Assembly (NCBI RefSeq): GCF_003044935.1
Contig: NZ_POXP01000002.1
Coordinates: forward strand, 248,001-312,000
DNA length: 64,000 nt
Direction of reading: 5' to 3'
Source of the DNA: Neisseria subflava
GTDB taxonomy: Bacteria > Pseudomonadota > Gammaproteobacteria > Burkholderiales > Neisseriaceae
In this document: positions 38,030 through 52,251 of the stretch, one piece after another
Layout of the letters: every line of letters begins with the position of its first letter
Numbering within the stretch: the stretch's first letter is position 1
Made by a program: the position numbers and the translations under genes
The notes under the pieces: model-generated
What the model was told of the DNA's origin: nothing
Databases searched by the model: none
Seen by the model: only the letters and a program-made list of their open reading frames with translations

Positions 38030-38680
38030 TTAAGGCAGCGAATTATAATATTCGTAGGCTTTGTCCATGTCTTCAAACTGGTACATATGCCCTTTTTCCA
38101 GCACCATCGCATTATCACAATATTGCTTCATGGCGCTGTGGCTATGCGATACCAAGATGATGGAACGGTCTTTGCGCTTTTCAAACAACTCGTACTTACA
38201 TTTATCGGCAAAGCGCGAGTCGCCAACTGCAATCACTTCGTCAATCAGATAGCAGTCAAACTCTACCGCCAACGACAAAGCAAATGCCAAACGTGCCTTC
38301 ATACCTGAAGAATAACGCTTGACCGGCTCATAAAGATATTGACCCAGCTCGGAAAACTCTTCGGTAAAGTTCTTCACATAATCGATGTCGACGTTGTAAA
38401 TCCGACAGATGAAACGCAAATTGTCCATACCGGTCAGACTGCCTTGAAACGCACCGGAGAATGCCAAAGGCCAAGAAATACTCATCGTACGTTTGATTTC
38501 TCCCGTGGTCGGCGGTTCAACGCCACTAATCAAACGGATGAGCGTCGATTTACCTGCACCGTTGCGGCCAAGAATACCGATTTTCTCGCCCTTCTCCATT
38601 TTGAAGTTGATATCGTGCAAGACTGTCCGCCAACCTTGGCGGGTCAGATACCGTTTGGAAACGTGTTCAACTGAAATCAT
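38030..38680 (-). CDS. ctrD: Capsule export ABC transporter ATP-binding protein CtrD
   Basis: A 216-residue ATPase, KpsT homologue, that powers capsule export. Walker A is [10 protein letters not shown] near residue 38, the signature is [14 protein letters not shown] and Walker B is [12 protein letters not shown]. Length and sequence are typical of CtrD. Its start overlaps the ctrC stop by 4 bases. Last gene of the ctrABCD operon. Confidence 0.96.
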
Positions 38681-39474
38681 TGCGGCTCAACCCCTTTGCT
38701 GAATCTCGCCACCATCGCCAAACCAAGCAGCAGCAAAACCAAGTTACACAACAAAATATACCAAGGATTTTCGTAAGTCGTGACGCTGTCGCCAAAATAT
38801 CCGGCACGGAACATTTCTGTACCATGCACCATCGGAATCATCAGCACATAGTGTTGTAACTGCTGAGGCAGGTTGTGTACGAAGAAAAACACGCCGGATA
38901 AAGGCATCATCACAAAACTGATGGTACTCCAAACCTTACCAAACGGTTCAAAGTGAAACGCCACCGAACAAATGACCAGCCCCAATCCAACGGCAAACAT
39001 TGCCATCAAAAGCCAAGCCAACAACATATAGAAAATATCTGCCGGTACATCAATCCAACCGATGATGACCAATGCGAACATAATCACGACCTGCGCAATG
39101 GTGGCGCCGGCAATCTCCAACAACATACGCGCAAAAATGGTATCCAAAACGCGTACATTTCGGTGATACAGCAAGCTTGTATTGGCCGAAATCGAACCGA
39201 TGGCACGATTAGAAGCATTACGCCACATCATCATCATCGGATAGCCTGTCAGCGTGAATGCAACGATATTCAAAGCTGACACGTTGTGCATGCGGAAAAA
39301 TTTCCACATCAACACCATAACCAAAGTCAGCAGCAAAGGTTCGACAAACAACCACAAAAAACCAATGTTATTACGACCGTAGCGAGTAATAATTTCACGC
39401 ATTAAGAGTGCGCCGATTACCCTTTTTTGAATAAGCAGCGACTCCAAAAACGATGTTTTATGTAGCTCTTTCAT
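38677..39474 (-). CDS. ctrC: Capsule export ABC transporter permease CtrC
   Basis: A 265-residue inner-membrane permease with six membrane helices, KpsM homologue (ABC-2 type). It begins with an amphipathic N-terminal part, [30 protein letters not shown], the conserved ABC-2 interface helix. It exports the lipid-linked polysaccharide with CtrD. Its ATG shares its first base region with the end of ctrB, so the two are coupled. Confidence 0.96.
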
Positions 39475-40643
39475 CAGTTTTTATGCTCACGGATACTTGC
39501 CGTCAGCAACACGGCTATGCCATAGACAATCAAACCGATGACAAACGTTGCCACGATGTTGTACAAACGGTTTGGCTCATGTGCCAAGTCAGGTTTGTTC
39601 GGCTGGGAAATCACTTCCAAATACAATTGCTGACGATCTGCTTCCGCTTTTGCACTTTCCAAAGAAGTCATCGCCGCAGCCAATTGTTTCTCAGCCAATT
39701 CGTTTTCCAAATACACGCGCTGATATTCCGCCGCCTGATTGGACAATGATCCCTCGCCACCGCCGGAAATCGCTTTCATTTGTTGCGAGATTTCTTTACG
39801 CAAGCTCTTCTCACGCGCAATCAAACCTGGAATTTGCGGGTTTTCAGGCGTAACAGCTTTTACCTGGTCAAGCTGGGTTTGAATGACAATCAACTCATCC
39901 TGCAATTTGGATACCAAACCCATTTGCACATCGGATTGCGCCTTCAAGTCGAAAATACCGTTGGAAACACGGAATTTTGTCAATTGGGCAGAAGCTTCTT
40001 TAACTTTCTCCTCAGCCGAATTGACCACTTCTTGAGCATAACGAATCGTATCCTGACGAGCACGTTCGTTCAGCTGGTTGATCAATACCTCGCCCTGTTT
40101 GAGCAAAGCATCATTGATCTTTTGAGATTCACCGGCATTGAACGATATAACGCTCAAATTGGAAATGCCTGAGACAGAGTCAAAATGGATGGATACCTTA
40201 TCGCGGTAGTATTGATAAAACGCTTCATCCTCGCCACGCAGGCCAAAACCATTAAAACGGCTGAAGATGTCGCCTTCTTTTTCATAAAAATCACGAACGG
40301 GCATTTTCTTACGCAACGCGTCCAAAGCTGAACGCGACTGCATATATTCCTGCACGGTATAAATATCGTCTTGCGCACGAGAGAAACCAGACCCCTGCAA
40401 AATGGCACCCAAGCCGTTCAAAGACGATTGGCTCTTAGGAGAGCGCACCACAAAGCTGGACTGGGATGTGAACTGATCGGAAGCAAATATTCCGTAATAC
40501 ACACCGGAACACAAAGTCGGCACGATAACCGTTACCCAAAGCAACGGATTAATCTTACGTAACCAAGACTTTTTGGCCTTTTTCTTTTCGGGAGCCGGTT
40601 GTTCCGGTTTCACATCCACATTTGCAGAAACTTGCTCAGACAT
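39474..40643 (-). CDS. ctrB: Capsule export inner-membrane protein CtrB (KpsE-type)
   Basis: A polysaccharide co-polymerase-like protein that links the ABC transporter to the outer-membrane channel. I start at 40643 (MSEQVSANV), as in meningococcal CtrB, with GGGGAAA just upstream; an ATG at 40655 overlapping the ctrA stop would add four residues. Two membrane helices (near residues 40 and 370) flank a large periplasmic coiled-coil domain (~250-340). N-terminal Pro/Lys-rich stretch is cytoplasmic. Confidence 0.95.
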   Translation of the reverse strand: MSEQVSANVDVKPEQPAPEKKKAKKSWLRKINPLLWVTVIVPTLCSGVYYGIFASDQFTSQSSFVVRSPKSQSSLNGLGAILQGSGFSRAQDDIYTVQEYMQSRSALDALRKKMPVRDFYEKEGDIFSRFNGFGLRGEDEAFYQYYRDKVSIHFDSVSGISNLSVISFNAGESQKINDALLKQGEVLINQLNERARQDTIRYAQEVVNSAEEKVKEASAQLTKFRVSNGIFDLKAQSDVQMGLVSKLQDELIVIQTQLDQVKAVTPENPQIPGLIAREKSLRKEISQQMKAISGGGEGSLSNQAAEYQRVYLENELAEKQLAAAMTSLESAKAEADRQQLYLEVISQPNKPDLAHEPNRLYNIVATFVIGLIVYGIAVLLTASIREHKN

Positions 40644-40654
40644 TATTTTCCCCA

Positions 40655-41833
40655 TTAGTTCACTAAATTATTAATACTGTTCGCACTGCTCACCACAGGT
40701 GAGAACACAAATGACAAGAACTTGCGTACTTCAGCCATCGGCGCATTCGATACGTACACCACGTCCTTATCCTTCACAGGGAAACGCTGCATCCAAAACA
40801 TAGAATTCGCATCTGCCAGGTTCAAACGGTAGACCACAGGAATCTCCGCACGATCGCCATAACCCTTTTCAACCCATTTAGATTGTTTCTCAGGAGGCAG
40901 CTCGGATAAAGGCGCATAACGGAATACAAATACACCGCGCGCATCTGCACGATAATCCTGCAAACCGCCCATACGTCCCACAGCCTCAGCCAAAGACAAG
41001 CCCTTCACAGAGAAACCAATCTGCTGCGTATGACCAACCGCACCCATAGACGTAAACGTGCTCGGATTTGTAATCATCGTGATCACGTCACCGCGACGCA
41101 ACAAAATATTTTGACGCGGATGCGCCACCAAATCTTCCAGAGCAATCGTTCTGACAACATTACCGCGTGTCAGCTGTACGTTCGTATCCTGAACATTCGC
41201 AGTCGAACCGCCCACCGCAGCCACCGCATCCAACACACGCTCGCCTGCAGCCGTCAAAGGCATACGCACACTGTTGCCCGCACGGATAACCGATACATTC
41301 GCCGCATTATTTTGCACCATGCGCACCATTACCTGCGGCTGGTTCGCCATTTTTTTCAGACGGCCTTTAATAATGTTTTGCACCTGAACCGGTGTTTTAC
41401 CAAGGACAGACACATCGCCGATAAACGGCACAGAAATCGTGCCTGAAGAGCTGACCATCTGTTCAGGCAGCTTCGTTTGCTGCGCATTACCCGAACCGGT
41501 AGACGACAAAGCTCCGCCGAACAACACAGCCGGAGGAGCTTCCCAAATCGTAATGTCCAGCACATCACCTATATTGATAGCCCCTATTGATGACGTACCA
41601 TCGCCCAACTGAGCAAATGACTGATTAACTTGCGCTTGATATAGCGACTGAGCTACCGCACCATTCACATCAATCAATTCCACCTCCGGTACTTCGGCTG
41701 TAGCCTGCTGTTGCCCCAAAGCAACAACATTTCGTGTACTTGGGCCGGAAGTAGGAAGAGAAGAGCATGCAGCCAACAGACTGACACACAACAATAACAT
41801 GCCCCTGCGGGTAAGACATTCTGCTTTCAACAT
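40655..41833 (-). CDS. ctrA: Capsule export outer-membrane lipoprotein CtrA (Wza-type)
   Basis: A 392-residue outer-membrane polysaccharide export protein. The lipobox LLAAC gives a lipidated Cys23. The Poly_export domain (NIGDVLDITIWEAPP, ~88-102), the SLBB domains and the C-terminus FVFSPVVSSANSINNL are nearly identical to meningococcal CtrA, while the N-terminal 60 residues are more variable. First gene of ctrABCD, transcribed away from the synthesis genes across a 119-bp spacer, the same arrangement as in meningococcus. Confidence 0.97.
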   Translation of the reverse strand: MLKAECLTRRGMLLLCVSLLAACSSLPTSGPSTRNVVALGQQQATAEVPEVELIDVNGAVAQSLYQAQVNQSFAQLGDGTSSIGAINIGDVLDITIWEAPPAVLFGGALSSTGSGNAQQTKLPEQMVSSSGTISVPFIGDVSVLGKTPVQVQNIIKGRLKKMANQPQVMVRMVQNNAANVSVIRAGNSVRMPLTAAGERVLDAVAAVGGSTANVQDTNVQLTRGNVVRTIALEDLVAHPRQNILLRRGDVITMITNPSTFTSMGAVGHTQQIGFSVKGLSLAEAVGRMGGLQDYRADARGVFVFRYAPLSELPPEKQSKWVEKGYGDRAEIPVVYRLNLADANSMFWMQRFPVKDKDVVYVSNAPMAEVRKFLSFVFSPVVSSANSINNLVN

Positions 41834-41952: not shown

Positions 41953-43056
41953 ATGAGAAAACTTAAAAAACTGATTCGACAACCAGGTGTATTCTTCCGC
42001 GACTATCTCAACAAAAGATACCCTGTCCGAAACGCCGAACAGCGTACAACAGAGTCTGACGAACCGGTCATTATCGACAACAGCCTGTATTTAGCCGAAA
42101 TTGAAAATAGTATCGACCTTCCCCCTATTAAAGTTGATGTCGTTTTCACATGGGTAAATAACCAAGATCCCAAATGGCAGCAACACCGCCGCCAATATAG
42201 CCCTACTGCCGAAAAAAACGCACTTCACAATAATGACGAAGCTCGTTTCAGCAACCACAACGAACTTTACTATTCACTTCACAGCGTGCGTACCTTCCTG
42301 CCGTGGGTTAACCATATCTACATCATTACCGACAACCAACGCCCCGATTGGCTCAACCCTGCCGACTATCCCAATGTCAGCATAATAGATCACAGTCAAA
42401 TCATTGACCCGCAATACCTGCCCACCTTCAATTCGCATGTAATCGAAGCACACTTGCACAACATTCCCAATCTAAATGAGCACTTCATCTATTTTAACGA
42501 TGATGTATTTGTTGCCCGACCATTACCGAAGGAACATTTTTTTCACGCCAACGGGATTGCTTCACTTTTTATTGCAGACAAAAGCCTAAAACAAATGTCC
42601 GAAAGAGGAACCGACACACCCACTCTTTCCGCCTCAAAAAACTGTATCGCACTATTACAACAGCACTACGACTGCCACATCGACCGTCCGTTAGTACACA
42701 CCTATATCCCACTGCATAAAAGCAGCTTTCAATTTGCTTGGCAGCACTACCGTACTGAGATTGAAGCCTTTTTATCCAACCGTTTCCGTTCTAACCACGA
42801 TCTCAACCTTGCCACCTTCCTCGTACCTTGGCTGATGTTTTTAAACAGGAAATCTACAGTAGGTAATGAAATATGTTATTATTTTAATATCCGCTCCAAC
42901 AAAGCGCCTGCCCAATATATCAAGCTCTTAGAAAATAAAAAAAATGGGCGGCAGCCACACTCTTTTTGTGCCAACGATTTTCACAGCCAGCAACAGATTG
43001 AAAACTACCAGGACAAACTGATTCAAATGCTGGAAAATTACTTCAAAACCAAATAA
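41953..43056 (+). CDS. Stealth-family capsule sugar-phosphate transferase
   Basis: A 367-residue cytoplasmic enzyme of the Stealth family, which makes phosphodiester links by moving hexose-1-phosphate (as in meningococcal CsaB/SacB, CslB and CsxA). Conserved regions in order: CR1 DVVFTWVN (62-69), CR2 ELYYSLHSVRTFLPWVNHIY with IITDNQRPDW (~100-135), STFxSHxIE-like FNSHVIEAHLHNIP and FIYFNDDVF (~178-186), CR3 around HTYIPLHKSSF, and CR4 with the FRSNHDLNLATFL block. It starts with KLKKLIRQPGVFFRDYLNKR, a basic motif also at the start of the next gene product. First gene of the capsule synthesis unit. Confidence 0.88.
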   Translation: MRKLKKLIRQPGVFFRDYLNKRYPVRNAEQRTTESDEPVIIDNSLYLAEIENSIDLPPIKVDVVFTWVNNQDPKWQQHRRQYSPTAEKNALHNNDEARFSNHNELYYSLHSVRTFLPWVNHIYIITDNQRPDWLNPADYPNVSIIDHSQIIDPQYLPTFNSHVIEAHLHNIPNLNEHFIYFNDDVFVARPLPKEHFFHANGIASLFIADKSLKQMSERGTDTPTLSASKNCIALLQQHYDCHIDRPLVHTYIPLHKSSFQFAWQHYRTEIEAFLSNRFRSNHDLNLATFLVPWLMFLNRKSTVGNEICYYFNIRSNKAPAQYIKLLENKKNGRQPHSFCANDFHSQQQIENYQDKLIQMLENYFKTK

Positions 43057-43074: not shown

Positions 43075-46000
43075 ATGAACAATAAAAAATTTCGGAAGCT
43101 CTTACGAGACCCTAAACTCTTTTTCCGCGACATGTACGCCAAACGCGTAATGAAACTCAAAAAATACCTTCCCTTAAAATACGAAGGTAATAATCAATTT
43201 ACAATCGTTTCAGCCGTTTATAACGTCGAAAAATACCTTGATGAATACTTTGACAGTATCGTCAAACAAAGCTTGAATTTCAAAAAACACATTCAAATCA
43301 TTCTAGTAGATGATGGGTCAACCGACCATTCAGCAGAAATCATCAAACGATGGCAAGCCAAATTTCCTAAAAATATCCATTATTTTTACAAAGAAAATGG
43401 CGGCCAGGCCTCGGCACGCAATCTAGGTTTACAACATACACAAACGGAATGGGTAGTATTTACTGACCCTGACGATTATCTTCACCCTGACTACTTCAAA
43501 TCAGTAGATACTCAAATTAGCCAACATCCGTCGGCAGTAACCGTAGCTACCAATATGATTTTTTTCTTTGAAAATCAAAATATTATAAAAGATAATCATC
43601 CTTTAAAATTCCGTTTTGATAAAACCCACGTTATTGATGTTGCTAAGCTCGATAAATTTATCAATATGTCAGCTGCCTCCACCTTTTTCAGAGTCAGCCA
43701 TATTAAAAAACAGAATTTGGTGTTTGACCACAATGTTAAGCCAAACTTTGAAGATGGCAAATTTATTGCAGACTATTTATTAGATTTGCAGGATGCAAAA
43801 GCTGTGTTTGACAGAGATGCCGTCTATTTCTATCGCAAACGTGAAAGTGGCACATCCACTTTAGATACTTCTTGGCAAAAAGTAGAAAAGTTTTCTAATG
43901 TTTTTGAGTATGGCTTCTTGCCTATGCTTCAAAACTATAAAAACCGCTTAGGGCATGTACCCTCCTCAATACAAAAAACCGCATTATATGATATGGCTTG
44001 GTATATCCAAAAATTGCTTAATAGACCTGAACGTCTAGATTTGTTGGATGCCAAACAAAAATCACATTTTTATGATCTAATGCAGCAGGTTTTTAATTAT
44101 ATTGATCAAAAAAATATTATGGAATTTGGCTTAGCGGGAGTATGGCTATTCCATAAAGTTGGTATGCTTGGAATGTTCAAACAGAGCGAGCCACCATTCC
44201 AAATCGCCTATATTGAAAACATTGATCGTGAACGCAAACAGTTCCTTATCAGCTATTTTACCTATTTCGACCAGCCATATTCTGTGCAGGCTGATGGGCA
44301 TGATCTTATTCCTGTCTATGTAAAAAGCGTAGTTAATAAGCTAAATGAACAATTATTTGTTTACGAAAAACGTTTGTGGGTTCCCTATGGGGATGTTGCA
44401 GACAACGCCAAAATTAATATTCTACTTAACAAAAAAGCAATGCGAATTTCGATTAAAGGTAAAACCTTTATGCACGGCATCGCATTAAATGAACTTATCG
44501 GTTTATTTACGCCGTCTGAAAAATACCTTTCAGACGGCAGTTGGCTCTTGATGGACAGGGAAACCAAAGCTGACGACAACGCTGAGCATTTTTATCGTTA
44601 TATGATGCAGAACCACCCTGAACAAACTTGTTATTTCGCACTCAACAGAACCGCCTCTGACTGGAACCGTCTCGAACAAGAAGGCTTTAAACTTGTAGAA
44701 TTTGGTGGTAGAGAATACGAACAACGTTTGCGTAAAGCTGAAAAAATCATTTCCAGCCATCTAGAAAAACACATTAACAATTATTTTGGTGATTTGTACG
44801 AACACAGCAAAAAATTCGTCTTCCTTCAACATGGAGTCACCCAAAACGACCTTTCTGCATGGTTCAATACTAAAACTAATCTACATTGTTTTATTACTAC
44901 TGCCACCCCTGAATATCAAACAATCATAGCTAACCCTAGCCGCTATAAGCTAACAAAAAAAGAAACAGTGTTAGCAGGCTTTCCTCGTTATGATAGTTTA
45001 GTATCAAAAAATATTGATCAAAGTAGAAAAATCCTAATTATGCCTACTTGGAGAAACAATATTGTAGGACAAAATATTGGTCGCGGTAGCAACACACGTG
45101 CGTTAAATAGTGATTTTATGAAAACTTCCTATGCGCAACATTGGTTTAATTTTTTGCACTCTATAAATTTAAGACAATTAGCAGAAAAGTTTAACTATGA
45201 AGTTATATTTGCTCCACACCCGAATATTGAGCCTTATTTAGACTTCTTTGATATTCCTAATTACATTCAGGTTTGGAAAGGATCAAGTGCTATAGAAAGT
45301 ATACAAACCTTATTTGGCCAATCATCAATTTTAATTACTGACTATTCCTCTGTAGCCTTTGATATGGCATATCTGAATAAATCTATTATCTATTATCAAT
45401 TTGATCAAAAAGAATTTTTCTCTGGAGCCCATACCCTTCAAAGGGGATGGTTTGACTATGAAAGTTCTGGCTTTGGGCCAGTCACGTTAACTGAACAAGA
45501 AACATTTAATGAACTAGAAAATATTCTCAAAACGGGTTTAAAACCAAAATATCTTGAACGTATCCGTGCTACCTTCCCATTTCAAAAAGGTGGTAACTGC
45601 GAACGTGTGTATCAAGCTATTATCGCCCTTGATCATGCCGAAACTGTCGACAACCTACCGATTCTGGTCGATATGATTGAGCAAGCAGAAAATCATCAGG
45701 CATGGGATTTGGCTGCAAGCCGTATTCAAACTCTGCTTGATACAGGCCGTCTGAATGCGGAAGAAACAGCTGATTATCGCCATCGTTATCTGAACGCTTT
45801 ATTTGAGAGCAAACAGTTTGATACTTTGCAAAACCTGTTACCTGATTATCCCGATACCGCAGGTTACTGGAATGCGAAAATGGACTTATATATCGGTAAT
45901 GCCGTTAAAGGGGCGGAATTTTTTGCTGAAAACGAGCATATAGGAACGCAAAATGATTTACTTATAGCATTACTTGCAGCCTCGTTTCATCAAGCAAAAA

Positions 46001-46761
46001 GGCTGTCTGAAAAACTGTTTGCCCGGATAGGTACAGACTTATCCGACTCATATCAACCTTTGTTGACCGTAGCACAAAAGCTATCGGAGCAGAATTATTT
46101 TGTAGCATTGGCTTTACTGAAAACGTATATTGATAGCTTGGACGATCGCACAAAAGGTTATCTAAAACCCGAGCTATTGGCTTCTTACCTCTGCATGAAA
46201 CTTGGTAACTTACAAGGCGCGCATCAGTATTTGGTTTCTTTTGAAAACCATACTCAGAATGATCCAAGTTGCCGTATCGCCATTGCAAGACTGGCAAAAT
46301 TACGCGGTGATTCTGAAAAACTATTTACCCAGCTTAACCGTGCCTTTGAAGAAAATCTGCTCTTCATTCCTGAAGATTTAACAGTCGATTATCTGAAAAA
46401 AATGTACGCTACCGGCAACACTGACGGCGAAGGATATCTATTGGCTCAACTGCGCCAAAAATATCCTGAGAATCCGTCTTTGGCCTTGTATGAAGCTGAA
46501 AAACTAGCCCAAAACCAAGATTGGGAGTCTGTCACCAAAATATTGGCTGATTTTGCACAAACCTCACCGGAAACGATGTATCTTTATACAACTGCTTTAT
46601 GCCGTCTGAAAAACCATCAAACAGCACAACGTTATTTTGACAGTCTCTCTCTACAAGACACAGCAGCATATTGGAAACTGGCAGCTGAAATAGCCGAAGC
46701 GAAAGGTGACAAGGCATTACAGGCTGAGTGTCTGAAAAAACAATTGGCTTGTTTAGAGTAA
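43075..46761 (+). CDS. Large capsule polymerase: GT2 + TagF-like polyol-phosphate transferase + helical repeats
   Basis: A 1228-residue multidomain protein, 18 bp after the Stealth gene. Residues ~40-300 are a family 2 glycosyltransferase (VSAVYNVEKYLDEYFDSIV; DDGS at 80-83; the metal-binding DPDD at 131-134). Residues ~480-850 are a CDP-glycerol glycerophosphotransferase domain like TagF (LQHGVTQND near 584, FAPHP near 712, DYSSVAFDMAY near 756). Residues ~860-1228 look like TPR-type helical repeats. The first 20 residues carry the RKLLRDPKLFFRD motif. Such GT+TagF fusions polymerise teichoic-acid-like capsules of alternating sugar and polyol-phosphate. The gene is more A/T rich than its flanks. 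Confidence 0.87.
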   Translation: MNNKKFRKLLRDPKLFFRDMYAKRVMKLKKYLPLKYEGNNQFTIVSAVYNVEKYLDEYFDSIVKQSLNFKKHIQIILVDDGSTDHSAEIIKRWQAKFPKNIHYFYKENGGQASARNLGLQHTQTEWVVFTDPDDYLHPDYFKSVDTQISQHPSAVTVATNMIFFFENQNIIKDNHPLKFRFDKTHVIDVAKLDKFINMSAASTFFRVSHIKKQNLVFDHNVKPNFEDGKFIADYLLDLQDAKAVFDRDAVYFYRKRESGTSTLDTSWQKVEKFSNVFEYGFLPMLQNYKNRLGHVPSSIQKTALYDMAWYIQKLLNRPERLDLLDAKQKSHFYDLMQQVFNYIDQKNIMEFGLAGVWLFHKVGMLGMFKQSEPPFQIAYIENIDRERKQFLISYFTYFDQPYSVQADGHDLIPVYVKSVVNKLNEQLFVYEKRLWVPYGDVADNAKINILLNKKAMRISIKGKTFMHGIALNELIGLFTPSEKYLSDGSWLLMDRETKADDNAEHFYRYMMQNHPEQTCYFALNRTASDWNRLEQEGFKLVEFGGREYEQRLRKAEKIISSHLEKHINNYFGDLYEHSKKFVFLQHGVTQNDLSAWFNTKTNLHCFITTATPEYQTIIANPSRYKLTKKETVLAGFPRYDSLVSKNIDQSRKILIMPTWRNNIVGQNIGRGSNTRALNSDFMKTSYAQHWFNFLHSINLRQLAEKFNYEVIFAPHPNIEPYLDFFDIPNYIQVWKGSSAIESIQTLFGQSSILITDYSSVAFDMAYLNKSIIYYQFDQKEFFSGAHTLQRGWFDYESSGFGPVTLTEQETFNELENILKTGLKPKYLERIRATFPFQKGGNCERVYQAIIALDHAETVDNLPILVDMIEQAENHQAWDLAASRIQTLLDTGRLNAEETADYRHRYLNALFESKQFDTLQNLLPDYPDTAGYWNAKMDLYIGNAVKGAEFFAENEHIGTQNDLLIALLAASFHQAKRLSEKLFARIGTDLSDSYQPLLTVAQKLSEQNYFVALALLKTYIDSLDDRTKGYLKPELLASYLCMKLGNLQGAHQYLVSFENHTQNDPSCRIAIARLAKLRGDSEKLFTQLNRAFEENLLFIPEDLTVDYLKKMYATGNTDGEGYLLAQLRQKYPENPSLALYEAEKLAQNQDWESVTKILADFAQTSPETMYLYTTALCRLKNHQTAQRYFDSLSLQDTAAYWKLAAEIAEAKGDKALQAECLKKQLACLE

Positions 46762-46832: not shown

Positions 46833-47882
46833 CTAATCAAGTTCTACTGTTGAATTGATATAGGTAACATGATTCATTTCTGCCAAATCCTTACCTTCAT
46901 CTATATCTGTGTATAAAACATTATTGCGTTCCCAAAATACATCTTTGCGTATGACTTTAGCCGGCACGCCTGCAATAACACAGTTATTAGGAAAATGTTT
47001 TTTCACTACCGAAAATGCACCAACAATACTACCGCTACCAATCTTTGTACCACCCCAAATTGTTGCGCCATAGGCTACCCACACTCTGTCTCCAATGGTA
47101 ACGTCTTTAGAAACATTTAAACGTTTGCCAGTATGAACATTATAAATCGGGTGTGCATCATCAGTACGGATTTGATTATTCGTGGCAAACATACAATCTT
47201 CACCAATGGACAAGGTTGTATGTTCGGCAACAGTAATATAAACCGGATTGGTACTGGTAGTTTTACTGCCGATGTTAATCGTACAGCCTACTCCCAAACA
47301 CCATTGGCCTTGCATAGAAACATTCTCGCCAATATAGACTTTGCTGTCCTTGCCTAAAAATTCCAAAAACACATTACGCAAGTTTGCATTAGGGTGGATA
47401 ACAACTTCATTCCCACCTCCTCCTAGAAATTGGAAATGACAGTTTCGCAGATTATCAGGTGCAGTAATTTTATTTCCGGAAGTATCAATATAATTGCCTG
47501 ACATCACTTCTTTTTTACGGCTGTTAACTACTGGCCGTTCAGAAAAATATTGTTCCGCACGTTCGGCCAATTTGATAAAGACTGCACAGGTTTGGGCAAA
47601 ATCCAAAGCACTGACATCATAAATGTATACATTATCCCCATCCTGCTTAGATAAACTGAAGTTTGGAAACATTTCTCCGATATTATCTATCTCACTTTTA
47701 TTACGATAAAACAGGAAAATCTTCTGCCAAACTAAATTTAAACTGACAGAAAATGGTGTTTCACGGTCAGATTTGAAATTGCAGTACACATTCTGCTGAT
47801 AATAAATATCAACAGACGTATTTTTTAATTTGATATTTTTAAGAATTTCTTGCTGAAATTCTTCAGTCGTTTTATCTATCAT
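46833..47882 (-). CDS. Left-handed beta-helix acyltransferase with extra N-terminal domain (putative capsule O-acetyltransferase)
   Basis: I start at the ATG at 47882 (MIDKTTEEFQQ), with GGGGAA upstream; a TTG at 47894 is the only alternative. The 349-residue protein has two parts. Residues ~1-115 form a domain that resembles the N-terminus of the hydrolase-like protein encoded upstream (shared RNKS...I...FP.F block). Residues ~130-340 are hexapeptide repeats with NQIRTDDAHPIY, holding the probable catalytic His as in capsule O-acetyltransferases of the NeuO/OatWY kind, and the end GVPAKVIRKDVFW. It should acylate the capsule. A terminator lies before it, so it may be expressed partly on its own. 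Confidence 0.82.
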   Translation of the reverse strand: MIDKTTEEFQQEILKNIKLKNTSVDIYYQQNVYCNFKSDRETPFSVSLNLVWQKIFLFYRNKSEIDNIGEMFPNFSLSKQDGDNVYIYDVSALDFAQTCAVFIKLAERAEQYFSERPVVNSRKKEVMSGNYIDTSGNKITAPDNLRNCHFQFLGGGGNEVVIHPNANLRNVFLEFLGKDSKVYIGENVSMQGQWCLGVGCTINIGSKTTSTNPVYITVAEHTTLSIGEDCMFATNNQIRTDDAHPIYNVHTGKRLNVSKDVTIGDRVWVAYGATIWGGTKIGSGSIVGAFSVVKKHFPNNCVIAGVPAKVIRKDVFWERNNVLYTDIDEGKDLAEMNHVTYINSTVELD

Positions 47883-47918
47883 TACATTCCCCAAACATGA
47901 TAAATATGGTTCAAATAT

Positions 47919-47958
47919 TAAAAAAATAGACAGTAAATTTTAAACTTACTGTCTATTT
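47919..47958 (-). terminator. Rho-independent terminator between hydrolase-like and acyltransferase genes
   Basis: AAATAGACAGTAA and TTACTGTCTATTT flank a 9-base loop. Read leftward it ends in seven T. It contains no DUS. It lies just after the hydrolase-like gene, so the following gene needs readthrough or its own promoter. Confidence 0.8.
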
Positions 47959-47967
47959 ACTTCGCAT

Positions 47968-49338
47968 TTAGTTCAGATTAATGTCCGAATCAGTGATATG
48001 GATGTCCAACAGCAAATTATTGATAATGGTATTGGACAAGAATACTGTGTTGCCTGAAAAATCTATGTGCTTTTGAATTTTTTCAAAGTCAAATTCACAT
48101 AATACAACTGTAGGCAATGCTTCTTTCAGCTCTTTAATATCCGGATAAAACTCTGATACCTTAGCCGATGAAATGACCACTTGATTTTCAAGGTTATGAT
48201 CAATTACATCCGGTAGCTTTTTGAAAGTCTCCAAAATCGGCGTACGGATAGAGTGCAGATACAATGGATCTTTGCCACCATAGTATTTATGGTTGCCCAA
48301 AAATGGGTCGATTGCAAAGGTTTTGTACCCACCAATTAAGCCGTGATATACCGCTCCTGTACCGCCTGATGATGCACCGCAAATGACTACGTTTTTCTTA
48401 TCTACGCCATAAATATTCATCAGGCTCTTAATGAAACGCTGGATATTGTCTTCGATATTTTCATCAAACTTTGTATTCAACCCGTGACTGCCAAACGCGT
48501 CTGATACATCAGCCATACGGATGATATAAGTATTTGGCATAATGCTGTTGCTGATAAATGGAAATGGGTGGCTATAATAACGGTCAACCATATTCTCATT
48601 GCTCTTATTGGTATAAGAGAACAACACCAATAGATTTTTCTTGTTGGCACTCAATACTTTCGGTGCTTCAACAGTATAAATAACATTTTCCAACTCATGG
48701 AAAGAGTCTGGGAAATAAGCCAAAAGATCTTTATAACTGTGCTTGTTCACACGACGGAACACACTTACACCCATTTTGTGTTCAACAGCTAAAAAGCCTC
48801 TATTATTTAGCTCATAGACATAATCACTTAGACCATGATTCCGAGCATAGCTTAGGAAAAACTCATTACTGTCGCCTTTAACACCAATGTATTCAACTTC
48901 CGGCTTATCCAAGTACTCGGCTAAATTAATGCCTTTATTTTTTTCAACATTCAGGATGTAGCACAGTTCGCTGCCAAGATAAATGGAAGTAACTTCTAAA
49001 ATCTCACTAAATTTATCCTCAATTTTTGCCCAATCGGCTTCAGCAAATTTAAAAGACAATACTGTCTTTTCTTGATTAACCGATTGCGGGTAACTTCCAT
49101 AGACTTCTGAAATATATTTCAAAAATTTTGGAAAACCAGAAATTTGAGAAACCTTGCTCTTATTACGCTCAATAAAGTTAAAGGTTTGTCCTACTACCGT
49201 ATAACTGACGCTGACAAAATAGTCGTTCAACAGAAAATCAAACACTATACTTTGATTGTTATAAATCCAAGCGTTAACCTTTTGAGGATCAATCTTGGCT
49301 TTTCGTAAGATGTTTTGCTGAATTTTATATAAATCCAT
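47968..49338 (-). CDS. Alpha/beta-hydrolase-fold putative acyltransferase/esterase of capsule decoration cassette
   Basis: I start at 49338 (MDLYKIQQN): the ATG follows the stop of the adenylation gene with one base between. An in-frame ATG at 49416 would overlap that gene and is unlikely. The 456-residue product has an N-terminal ~120-residue domain (FVSVSYTVVGQTFNF, ERNKSKVSQISGFPKF) similar to that of the acyltransferase encoded downstream, then an alpha/beta-hydrolase region with the nucleophile elbow CGASSGGTGA (Ser323). Likely acid and base are near the C-terminus (LLLDIHITDSD). The fold recalls meningococcal CsaC and Asp2, which are acetyltransferases. It may move an acyl or aminoacyl group to the capsule. 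Confidence 0.72.
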   Translation of the reverse strand: MDLYKIQQNILRKAKIDPQKVNAWIYNNQSIVFDFLLNDYFVSVSYTVVGQTFNFIERNKSKVSQISGFPKFLKYISEVYGSYPQSVNQEKTVLSFKFAEADWAKIEDKFSEILEVTSIYLGSELCYILNVEKNKGINLAEYLDKPEVEYIGVKGDSNEFFLSYARNHGLSDYVYELNNRGFLAVEHKMGVSVFRRVNKHSYKDLLAYFPDSFHELENVIYTVEAPKVLSANKKNLLVLFSYTNKSNENMVDRYYSHPFPFISNSIMPNTYIIRMADVSDAFGSHGLNTKFDENIEDNIQRFIKSLMNIYGVDKKNVVICGASSGGTGAVYHGLIGGYKTFAIDPFLGNHKYYGGKDPLYLHSIRTPILETFKKLPDVIDHNLENQVVISSAKVSEFYPDIKELKEALPTVVLCEFDFEKIQKHIDFSGNTVFLSNTIINNLLLDIHITDSDINLN

Positions 49339-49339
49339 T

Positions 49340-50779
49340 TTATAAACCCTGTTGATATTTTTCCAACAATGCTTTTTTGTCGGTTTTGTGGTTGGTGCTG
49401 ACTGGAATTTCATCAATGTGAATAAATTCAGACGGCATCATGTAAGACGGTAAATTTTGTACTAATGCGTCTTTGATCGCCTGAGTATCTGCACTTTGCT
49501 TGGCTGTATAGAAACACACCAAACGCAATACTGCGCCTGTGTTGCGCTTCAACGCCACTACTGCCACATTATCAAAGGCAAATTCCTTAAGGTTAAGGAT
49601 TTTTTCTTCAATTTCTGAAAGTTCGATACGGTAGCCATTGAGCTTAATCTGCTCGTCTTTACGGCCTTGTACATAGAACAATCCATTTCTTTCAAAACCG
49701 TAGTCACCTGTTTTATAAGTGCGGTTATCTGCACTGTGTACTACCAAGCGTTTGGCATTTTCAGTTTCGTTGTTCAGATAGCCACGCATCACATGATTAC
49801 CACTAATCCAAATCTCTTCGTCAACAATCTCTAATTTGGAATTAAGCACGGCAATGCCTACAGGCAACTCTTCTTCTGCCGCCAGCATATCAGGCGTAAT
49901 ATCAACGTAAGTTGTTGCTACAGTAGCCTCAGTCGGACCATAGGTATTGATAACACGGACACCGGGAAATTTTTGAAAAATCATATTTACTACAGGTTTG
50001 CCAAGTTTTTCGCCACAGAACAAAAATTCCTTCAAACTCGGTAAAGTAGCCTGACTACATTTAGGGTTGAGCAGCTGCTGCATGGCAAAAGAAGGCGTGG
50101 AAACCCAAGTAGTAATTTGTTGTTTGACCAAAAAATCAATCCAGGTGGCAGGATTAGAAATAGCATCACGACTGTTCATGACAATGCAACCACCGTAAGC
50201 CAAGTTGCCAAAGATTTCGTACATTGACAAATCAAACGCAAACGGAGCCTGATTCATAAACACATTAGGTGCGGCTAAATTAAGCTGCTCTTTCATCCAT
50301 TTCATCAGGTTGAATACAGCTTCACGACCGATTTGCACCCCCTTAGGTGCGCCGGTTGTTCCTGAAGTAAACATGATGTAAGCCAAATCTTTTTCAGCCA
50401 ACTCTACTTCTTCATCAGTCTGCTTTTCAAAAGTTTGCGTTGCCGAACGGTACACAAAACGTGCTTTCGACAGTTGGCAGATATTGTTCAAACGGCTTTC
50501 AGGATAAATACTATCCACCGGAATAAAAGGGATTTTGTTTAATAAGCAGGCATAAATTGCCACTGCAAAATCAATTTCTTTATGGCCGTGCAACACCAAA
50601 GGAATGTTTTTGGTAATATCTGCTATGCTTTTGTAAGCCTCGATAAATGCGGCTATTTTTACGCGCAACTCTTCCCAAGAACATTCCTGAGTATCATTAA
50701 CTAACGCTTTTCCCGAAGTTTGGCTGAAACGGTATTCCAAAAAATCATCAAGATTTTGGAATTCATTTAATTGTTTCAT
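49340..50779 (-). CDS. DltA-like amino-acid adenylating enzyme (carrier protein ligase)
   Basis: A 479-residue adenylation enzyme, near DltA length (~500). Core motifs: A3 FTSGTTGAPKGV (138-148), FAFDLSMYEIF with Asp183, FLFCGEKLG with Cys255, A5 YGPTEATVA (280-288), A7 YKTGDYG, A8 GRKDEQIKLNGYRIE and the A10 Lys in NHKTDKKAL. The Asp-to-Cys distance of 72 equals that of DltA, where that Cys favours D-alanine. It should charge the carrier protein encoded 3 bp upstream. No DltB or DltD gene is present in the window. The next gene starts one base after its stop. Confidence 0.87.
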   Translation of the reverse strand: MKQLNEFQNLDDFLEYRFSQTSGKALVNDTQECSWEELRVKIAAFIEAYKSIADITKNIPLVLHGHKEIDFAVAIYACLLNKIPFIPVDSIYPESRLNNICQLSKARFVYRSATQTFEKQTDEEVELAEKDLAYIMFTSGTTGAPKGVQIGREAVFNLMKWMKEQLNLAAPNVFMNQAPFAFDLSMYEIFGNLAYGGCIVMNSRDAISNPATWIDFLVKQQITTWVSTPSFAMQQLLNPKCSQATLPSLKEFLFCGEKLGKPVVNMIFQKFPGVRVINTYGPTEATVATTYVDITPDMLAAEEELPVGIAVLNSKLEIVDEEIWISGNHVMRGYLNNETENAKRLVVHSADNRTYKTGDYGFERNGLFYVQGRKDEQIKLNGYRIELSEIEEKILNLKEFAFDNVAVVALKRNTGAVLRLVCFYTAKQSADTQAIKDALVQNLPSYMMPSEFIHIDEIPVSTNHKTDKKALLEKYQQGL

Positions 50780-50782
50780 GAT

Positions 50783-51013
50783 TTAGCCTTTGTAATTATT
50801 TTCAACATATTGAATGATATTGGCTGAGTTTGCCAAAATATCAACCAGTTGCTCAAACGGCAAATCAACATCAAATTTTTGTTTGATGGCCATAACCAAA
50901 TCCATTGCGCTCACAGAATCAATAAGTCCCGTAGACAACAATTCTTCATTTGCTGACACTTGTTTTTGTGCAACTTGTGAAATCAACGCCAAAACTTCGT
51001 TAGATACTGACAT
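50783..51013 (-). CDS. DltC/AlmF-like carrier protein
   Basis: A 76-residue acyl-carrier-like protein, distinct from AcpP. The phosphopantetheine site is LIDSVSAMDL with Ser33, closer to DltC (LLDSMGTV) than to the GADSLD of AcpP. It is first in a leftward unit with the adenylation enzyme (gap 3 bp), so it is its likely partner. AAGGA precedes its start. It would hold the activated amino acid as a thioester in the cytoplasm. The 4'-phosphopantetheinyl transferase must be encoded elsewhere. Confidence 0.88.
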   Translation of the reverse strand: MSVSNEVLALISQVAQKQVSANEELLSTGLIDSVSAMDLVMAIKQKFDVDLPFEQLVDILANSANIIQYVENNYKG

Positions 51014-51234: not shown

Positions 51235-52251
51235 ATGACTATTCTTATCACCGGCGGTACCGGTTTTATCGGCTCGCATACCGCTATTTCGCTGATTGAA
51301 GCGGGCTACAATGTCGTAATTCTTGACAATCTGTGCAATTCCAGTATCAACATTCTGCCACGTCTAAAAAAAATCACTGGCAAAGATATTCCTTTTTATC
51401 AAGGAGATATCCGAGATCGCGCTATGCTGCAAAAGATTTTTGCCGAACATAAAATCCAAACTGTGATGCACTTTGCCGGTTTGAAAGCGGTAGGCGAAAG
51501 CAATACACTACCTATGAAATATTACAATTACAACGTATCGGGTAGCTTGATTTTGGCAGAAGAAATGGCTAAGGCAGGAGTATTTAGTATTGTATTTAGC
51601 TCATCTGCTACAGTATATGGTGACCCTGCACGTACGCCAATTACCGAAGATATGCCAGTAGGAGGTACAACCAATCCTTACGGCACATCAAAATATATAG
51701 TCGAACGTATTTTGACTGATATTCAAAAAGCCGACCCACGCTGGAGCGTGATTCTGCTACGCTATTTCAATCCTGTAGGCGCACACAAAAGTGGTTTAAT
51801 CGGAGAATACCCAAATGGTATTCCAAATAACCTCTTACCGTATATCTGCCAAGTCGCTTTGGGTAAACTGACAGAGTTGTCAGTATTCGGAAACGACTAC
51901 CCTACCCCTGATGGCACAGGTGTGCGCGATTATATCCATGTTGTTGATCTGGCCGATGGCCATTTGAAAGCTATGCAAAGCCATTCAACCAAGTCCGGTG
52001 TACATATATTTAATTTAGGCACAGGTAACGGCTATTCCGTACTAGATATGATCAAAGCCTTTGAAACTGCTTCAGGCCTGAAAGTTCCTTATCGAATTAA
52101 AGACCGTCGCCCTGGTGATATTGCTGTTTGTTACGCCGACCCTGCCTACACCAAAGCGCAGACCGGTTGGGAAACCAAACGCAATTTGGCGCAGATGATG
52201 GAAGACTCATGGCGTTGGGTCAGCAACAACCCAAATGGCTACGACGATTAA
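51235..52251 (+). CDS. galE: UDP-glucose 4-epimerase GalE
   Basis: A 338-residue cytoplasmic enzyme that interconverts UDP-glucose and UDP-galactose for LOS and capsule sugars. NAD motif [11 protein letters not shown] (7-17), catalytic Tyr-X3-Lys in YGTSKY near residue 148, and the Ser/Thr of FSSSATVYG. In meningococcus galE opens region D; the order galE-rfbB-rfbA-rfbC is preserved here. TTGACA at 51141-51146 in the 221-bp divergent spacer could be a -35, but I see no matching -10. Confidence 0.96.

Follow-up and report, generated by a model that had tools for sequence, protein, structure and literature searches.

A four-gene cassette with a carrier protein in a capsule locus

The window analysed here, a 64,000-nucleotide stretch of Neisseria subflava DNA (contig NZ_POXP01000002.1, positions 248,001 to 312,000), contains a capsule locus in the order ctrA-D, Stealth-family gene, capsule polymerase gene, cassette, galE, rfbBAC and ctrE/F. 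Our subject is the cassette, which consists of genes for a carrier protein, a stand-alone DltA-like adenylation enzyme (A-domain), an alpha/beta-hydrolase-fold protein (HYD) and a left-handed beta-helix transferase (LbH). All four genes are intact, lie on the minus strand between the polymerase gene and galE, and are separated by 3 bp (carrier and A-domain) and 1 bp (A-domain and HYD), as a preliminary description of this DNA had reported together with Ser33 of the carrier. The features of the cassette are:

50783-51013, minus strand: carrier protein (PCP/DltC-like), 76 aa; PF00550, phosphopantetheine Ser33 in the motif GLIDS
49340-50779, minus strand: stand-alone DltA-like adenylation enzyme (A-domain), 479 aa; AMP-binding family, DltA pocket
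47968-49338, minus strand: HYD, alpha/beta-hydrolase-fold putative capsule acyltransferase, 456 aa; XcbB/CpsF family, Ser323 (GASSG) and His424
48973-49338, minus strand: N-domain of HYD, about residues 1-122, candidate carrier-docking domain; among HYD homologues, found in carrier loci only
47958-47924, minus strand: intrinsic-terminator-like hairpin between HYD and LbH (16-bp stem, loop of 3, T-run)
46833-47882, minus strand: LbH, left-handed beta-helix transferase, 349 aa from ATG, optional; NeuO/OatWY-type catalytic domain
47538-47882, minus strand: N-domain of LbH, about residues 1-115; homologous to the N-domain of HYD

HYD has 456 residues when read from its ATG; a 482-aa open reading frame starts at an upstream TTG within the A-domain gene. 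The spacing between HYD and LbH is 85 bp and includes the terminator-like hairpin, so LbH need not be on the transcript of the other three genes. The preliminary description counted this beta-helix acyltransferase as a member of the unit; the gene is indeed present and leftward, but it stands behind the terminator, is optional, and probably encodes an ordinary O-acetyltransferase (see below). The GC content of the cassette genes is 35-41%, compared with 49% for the window, in which DNA uptake sequences are frequent, fitting the genus Neisseria. Within the capsule locus, to which the search for them was confined, neither an MBOAT gene nor a DltD gene was seen.

The adenylation enzyme has a DltA-like substrate pocket

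In Pfam scans, the carrier matched the PP-binding family PF00550 (E 3.3e-8) and the A-domain matched the AMP-binding family (E 1.6e-52). Against DltC models the carrier reached E 6e-8, which is under the cut-off. Ser33 was invariant across five Neisseriaceae homologues, and the GLIDS motif was also present in G565, a Pasteurellaceae genome with the same gene trio. The A-domain scored 353 and 363 bits against the DltA models TIGR01734 and PRK04813, not reaching their cut-offs of 560 and 476. DltA structures were its best single-domain matches in the Protein Data Bank (PDB), and it was about 43% identical to Bacillus cereus DltA over 192 core columns. Judged from these scores, the enzyme is homologous to DltA but is not DltA proper.

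The substrate pocket of the A-domain reads DLYSLCTVA, compared with DLMSLCTVA in B. cereus DltA, with Met201 replaced by Tyr and the other eight of the nine positions identical; the same 8/9 was found in all five Neisseriaceae copies compared. Asp197 and Cys269 of DltA, which in DltA structures hold the amine and take part in D/L selection, are both retained. Since the pocket equals that of DltA at 8/9 positions, D-alanine is the likeliest acid to be loaded in Neisseria. The pocket of the G565 enzyme reads DVFSFAGII and does not correspond to a D-alanine pocket. As it differs in this way, the loaded acid probably varies by lineage.

HYD is the constant partner of the carrier genes

Six of 46 Neisseria genomes contained HYD, and the same six contained the DltA-like A-domain, always adjoining it and accompanied by the carrier. 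A seventh case was found in another Neisseriaceae genus (G434), and among 140 Pasteurellaceae genomes scanned, G565 provided an eighth. The three genes of G565 follow the same order as in the window, the A-domain and HYD genes are likewise 1 bp apart, and HYD is 38% identical. The trio is thus adjacent in six of the 46 Neisseria genomes and, outside Neisseria, in one genus of Neisseriaceae and one of Pasteurellaceae, which argues that the association of these genes is not due to chance. Moreover, HYD is present in 8/8 carrier loci and LbH is missing from 4 of the 8 (G022, G036, G434 and G565), which makes HYD, not LbH, the constant partner.

The A-domain/carrier pair in G013 (N. elongata subsp. 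elongata ATCC 25295, contig of L064) and in G022 is a different allele, with 75% and 63-66% identity to that of the window, and HYD in these genomes is still 91-96% identical. A divergent pair beside a near-unchanged HYD suggests that the donor pair moves as a unit. The pocket residues are unchanged in the divergent alleles (L026:480-2157 and L028:7176-8853).

HYD belongs to a known family of capsule enzymes

HYD scored 235.6 bits against the XcbB/CpsF model NF033892 (cut-off 125). It has a solved relative, deposited as an XcbB/CpsF protein in PDB entries 9hvz, 9hwh, 9hwi and 9i87 (E 3e-25 against 9hvz), and the name of one entry includes acetyl-CoA; no paper describing 9hvz was found in our literature search. 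Ser323 and His424 are invariant in the long and short members of the family, and Ser323 sits at a strand/helix elbow in the AlphaFold2 (AF2) model of HYD. The top Foldseek match of this model was CsaC (6yuv), the meningococcal serogroup A capsule O-acetyltransferase, which VIA-align superposed with a Z of 11.9 (rmsd 4.0, 188 residues aligned), a result that many esterases tie. We also considered whether HYD is a type II thioesterase (PF00975), and rejected this identity, as the thioesterase family was not matched in a Pfam scan at E 1.

By these matches, HYD is a member of the known capsule acyltransferase-type family XcbB/CpsF. The preliminary description had suggested a new kind of transferase, which is not supported for a protein so far above the family cut-off and with a relative already solved and deposited with acetyl-CoA. 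What would be new, if our reading is right, is the donor used by HYD and the N-terminal domain added to it.

A domain common to HYD and LbH marks the carrier loci

This N-domain of HYD was found in 8/8 of the loci with a carrier (seven from Neisseriaceae, one from Pasteurellaceae) and in 0/4 intact carrier-free loci (G432, G482, G459 and G057), an association with a Fisher p of 0.002, which overstates independence as the genomes are not independent samples, though the loci span two bacterial families with differing polymerase types. The short HYD homologues of the carrier-free loci, like 9hvz, are about 340-355 residues long and start without the first 115-120 or so residues.

A profile of the HYD N-domain with G565 included matched the N-terminal part of LbH near full length (E 1.2e-4 among 912 open reading frames of 21 loci), and hhalign of the two domains gave an E of 4e-6 and a probability of 87%; without the G565 sequence, the similarity was borderline. 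Both N-domains were modelled by AF2 as a helix, four strands, a helix, one or more strands and a helix. The domain is found on two transferases of unrelated folds within one cassette. It was absent from the LbH homologues in G432, G008, G036 (outside the cassette), G037 and G035, and from both the HYD and the LbH homologues of the carrier-free locus L063. Among 398 genomes of the phylum, it was found in the window's own genome only, and among the 140 Pasteurellaceae genomes, clear scores came only from G565 and from one broken gene in G474. The locus of that gene (L111:132-1195) holds broken Stealth, polymerase and N-domain-bearing LbH genes, about 66-83% identical to those of the window, and its contig stops just short of the position of HYD; the resemblance suggests either that the genes passed recently from one family to the other or that the assembly is at fault. 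A hairpin-like inverted repeat was seen by eye upstream of LbH there as well.

Two other identities for the N-domain were rejected. A repeated domain in G008 resembled it by eye, as if it were a general domain of Neisseria capsule enzymes, but shuffling gave z values of no more than 2.2, short of a significant relationship. The T4 MotA C-terminal domain, the best Foldseek match of the LbH model, was too weak to use (E 7e-3); the Foldseek lists of HYD were filled by matches to the hydrolase domain and hardly probed the N-domain. The G008 protein is a 1193-aa capsule-locus fusion (L076:7664-11245, minus strand) of a GT32-like part, an LbH domain (55% identical to that of the window) and a PIG-L-like deacetylase motif, and it also holds two copies of an unnamed domain of about 110 residues (residues 277-388 and 1086-1193).

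The catalytic domain of LbH has NeuO (3jqy, E 3e-31) and OatWY (2wlc, E 6e-31) as its nearest solved structures, and VIA aligned it with OatWY at a Z of 17.4 (rmsd 11.5, 183 residues). Relatives of known function are acetyl-CoA enzymes, and homologues with 55-58% identity are located away from any carrier gene. LbH is probably an ordinary, separate and optional O-acetyltransferase, and it may or may not use the carrier. In two Neisseria genomes, LbH homologues (56-58% identical) stand alone outside a capsule cassette (L077:9058-10176 and L078:9141-9755), the L077 copy with a different N-terminal region.

A proposed cytoplasmic route of capsule aminoacylation and its alternatives

Taken together, these comparisons make it reasonably probable that the carrier, the A-domain and HYD act together in the cytoplasm as one acyl-transfer line serving the capsule. 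The A-domain would activate an amino acid with ATP (D-alanine being the likeliest in Neisseria) and load it onto the phosphopantetheine of the carrier. Ser323 of HYD would accept the aminoacyl group from the carrier, and HYD would transfer it to a hydroxyl on the capsule polymer before the latter leaves the cytoplasm; the N-domain would most likely dock the carrier, or hold the enzymes to it, and CtrABCD would export the decorated polymer afterwards. The A-domain and carrier would thus replace acetyl-CoA as the donor for a capsule acyltransferase. The preliminary description had likewise proposed that the aminoacyl-carrier is used in the cytoplasm by HYD, and the proposal gains comparative support from HYD being the invariant partner, from its capsule acyltransferase-type family and from the DltA-like pocket; it would also explain why DltB and DltD were not seen in the locus.

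We see an even chance that the wider account is correct, namely that an XcbB/CpsF enzyme has exchanged acetyl-CoA for an aminoacyl-carrier by means of a domain dedicated to docking, that a Gram-negative capsule is thereby aminoacylated in the cytoplasm and made zwitterionic, and that different A-domain/carrier pairs supply different acids in different lineages. The capsule would gain a positive charge only if the loaded acid is an amino acid whose amine is free.

Several points weigh against a carrier-fed HYD. The evidence is comparative, and the arrangement was seen in two bacterial families only. Since XcbB/CpsF proteins elsewhere do without a carrier, acetyl-CoA could still be the donor of HYD. 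The change of Met201 to Tyr and the different Pasteurellaceae pocket make D-alanine less than certain. The likeness between the N-domains of HYD and LbH is modest, and their AF2 models are moderately confident (mean pLDDT 68 and 62). Finally, G474 has an LbH with the N-domain and no HYD was found in its assembly; as this LbH is broken and the end of its contig is about 140 bp away, the case neither supports nor refutes the proposal.

Among the alternatives, the N-domain might bind the polymer acceptor, or assemble enzymes on the capsule machinery, its link with carrier loci being coincidental whether or not HYD and the carrier cooperate. The small number of independent lineages would allow for this, as would the occurrence of multi-domain capsule enzymes elsewhere in Neisseria, such as the G008 fusion. 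However, the two carrier lineages share the N-domain even though they differ in polymerase (QHG type in Neisseriaceae, WHG type with a cytidylyltransferase-like gene in G565), and the HYD homologues of carrier-free loci lack it, and we regard this explanation as unlikely. It is quite doubtful that HYD and LbH are both carrier users, each docking the carrier through its N-domain and placing the same acyl group onto different hydroxyls: the domain does occur on both and not on the homologues of either in L063, which has no carrier, but the LbH relatives of known function use acetyl-CoA, and the LbH N-domain occurs in G474 without a detected HYD. A reversal of roles, in which the loaded carrier serves LbH and HYD depends on acetyl-CoA as an ordinary O-acetyltransferase, in the manner of CsaC and the XcbB/CpsF relatives of HYD, would be in line with the N-domain of LbH and with the acetyl-CoA in the deposited relative of HYD. 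It seems very unlikely, since it is LbH and not HYD that is absent from half of the carrier loci, that is preceded by a terminator, and that has a catalytic domain nearest to OatWY and NeuO and close homologues away from carrier genes. That HYD is an editing thioesterase of the type II kind, clearing misloaded carriers while the amino acid goes elsewhere, recalls the stand-alone alpha/beta hydrolases found with A-domain/carrier pairs in the gene clusters of peptide synthetases, but it is highly improbable given the lack of any Pfam thioesterase match, the strong match to a capsule family that is also present in carrier-free capsule loci, and the fact that cassettes without LbH would be left without any transferase.

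Comparison with known systems and earlier reports

The cassette joins activation of the Dlt/Alm type to a capsule transferase of the CsaC/XcbB type. As in the DltABCD system of Gram-positive bacteria, a DltA-like adenylation enzyme with a near-identical pocket is paired with a separate small carrier; unlike in that system, DltB and DltD were not seen in the locus, the scores fell under the DltA and DltC cut-offs, and the transfer would probably be intracellular, onto a Gram-negative capsule, by an enzyme of the alpha/beta-hydrolase fold. AlmEFG of Vibrio cholerae also combines an adenylation enzyme, a carrier and an acyltransferase to modify a surface glycan in a Gram-negative bacterium, but AlmG is of the LPLAT type and transfers glycine to lipid A, whereas the cassette has an XcbB/CpsF enzyme and a capsule; no AlmG-type LPLAT transferase lies beside the A-domain/carrier pair, the transferases of the cassette being XcbB/CpsF and LbH. 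CsaC and the XcbB/CpsF protein of 9hvz share with HYD the hydrolase-type fold, the Ser-His active site and the location in a capsule locus. Unlike HYD, both lack the N-domain; CsaC uses acetyl-CoA and 9hvz was deposited with it, and no carrier pair adjoins the XcbB/CpsF genes that lack the N-domain. OatWY/CssF and NeuO resemble LbH in the catalytic domain but do not have the extra N-domain that it has in common with HYD.

The genes NEIS2941, NEIS2942, NEIS2943 and NEIS2974 of N. subflava, N. elongata subsp. elongata and N. oralis were described as a glycosyl transferase, an acetyltransferase, an alpha/beta-hydrolase and a ligase, with NEIS2942 missing in some isolates and the ligase named 'D-alanine-D-alanine ligase' (Clemence 2018, PMC6202450). 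By order and description, they are the same genes as those of the window. A listing of 2020 again used the label 'd-ala-d-ala ligase' (PMC7643975). Neither report mentions an acyl carrier, and the former proposes no pathway. We found no report of carrier-based capsule aminoacylation in Gram-negative bacteria in the literature searched, which is not proof of absence, as most subscription papers lay outside its coverage.

If the proposed route is true, a soluble donor system aminoacylates capsules inside the cell, as a simple alternative to membrane-bound machinery such as Dlt and Alm and a new way for Gram-negative bacteria to alter the charge of their coat. Common oral commensals would be predicted to have zwitterionic capsules, with probable consequences for antimicrobial peptides and for the recognition of such capsules. 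It would also provide a first function for the unnamed N-domain, and correct the 'D-Ala-D-Ala ligase' label that has hidden the pathway since 2018.

The capsule polymer and the neighbouring genes

The acceptor would be the product of the surrounding capsule genes, which in the window are:

43075-46761, plus strand: capsule polymerase, GT-A (GT2), TagF-like and TPR parts; PF00535, PF04464, QHG at residues 585-587
41953-43056, plus strand: Stealth-family hexose-1-phosphate transferase; PF11380, PF17101, matching GlcNAc-1-phosphotransferases in the PDB and CpsY
51235-52251, plus strand: galE, flanking the cassette opposite the polymerase gene
38030-41833, minus strand: ctrA-D, capsule export genes

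Cps1B and Ccs2 have the same arrangement of GT-A, TagF-like and TPR parts as the polymerase (PMC5974469), which probably makes the acceptor polymer. Its TagF-like part has the motif QHG, as do all eight Neisseriaceae polymerases read, and WHG was found in the Pasteurellaceae loci; the QHG variant has been assigned to GT-B hexose-phosphate transferases and WHG to glycerol-phosphate polymerases (PMC11666461). A glycerol-3-phosphate cytidylyltransferase was not found in the 100% complete genome, in which the only match was an HldE-like protein of 41 bits (cut-off 165). A poly(oligosaccharide phosphate) is therefore a likelier backbone than the teichoic-acid-like polymer first suggested for this capsule.

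G565 has a WHG polymerase together with a cytidylyltransferase-like gene, and an ABC-type ATPase and a permease were recognized by eye beside its cassette; the window has the ctr genes. What the two loci have in common is probably an ABC-exported polymer completed in the cytoplasm. Group 2 capsules are finished in the cytoplasm and then exported by an ABC transporter, and with a polymer completed and exported in this way, a DltB/DltD step is not needed.

In the cytidylyltransferase-like gene of G565 (L098:16631-17962), located between TagF-like genes, this domain is fused to a GFO/IDH/MocA oxidoreductase, and the activated polyol is not obvious. The Stealth gene adjoining ctrA is reduced or frameshifted in the two Neisseria cassettes without LbH (G022, L028:14188-14457; G036, L030:14025-14468). 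A second Stealth gene, 51% identical to that of the window, lies near the rfb genes in G025 (L029:2432-3553) and G036 (L030:2034-3155), and in G025 it adjoins ctrE.

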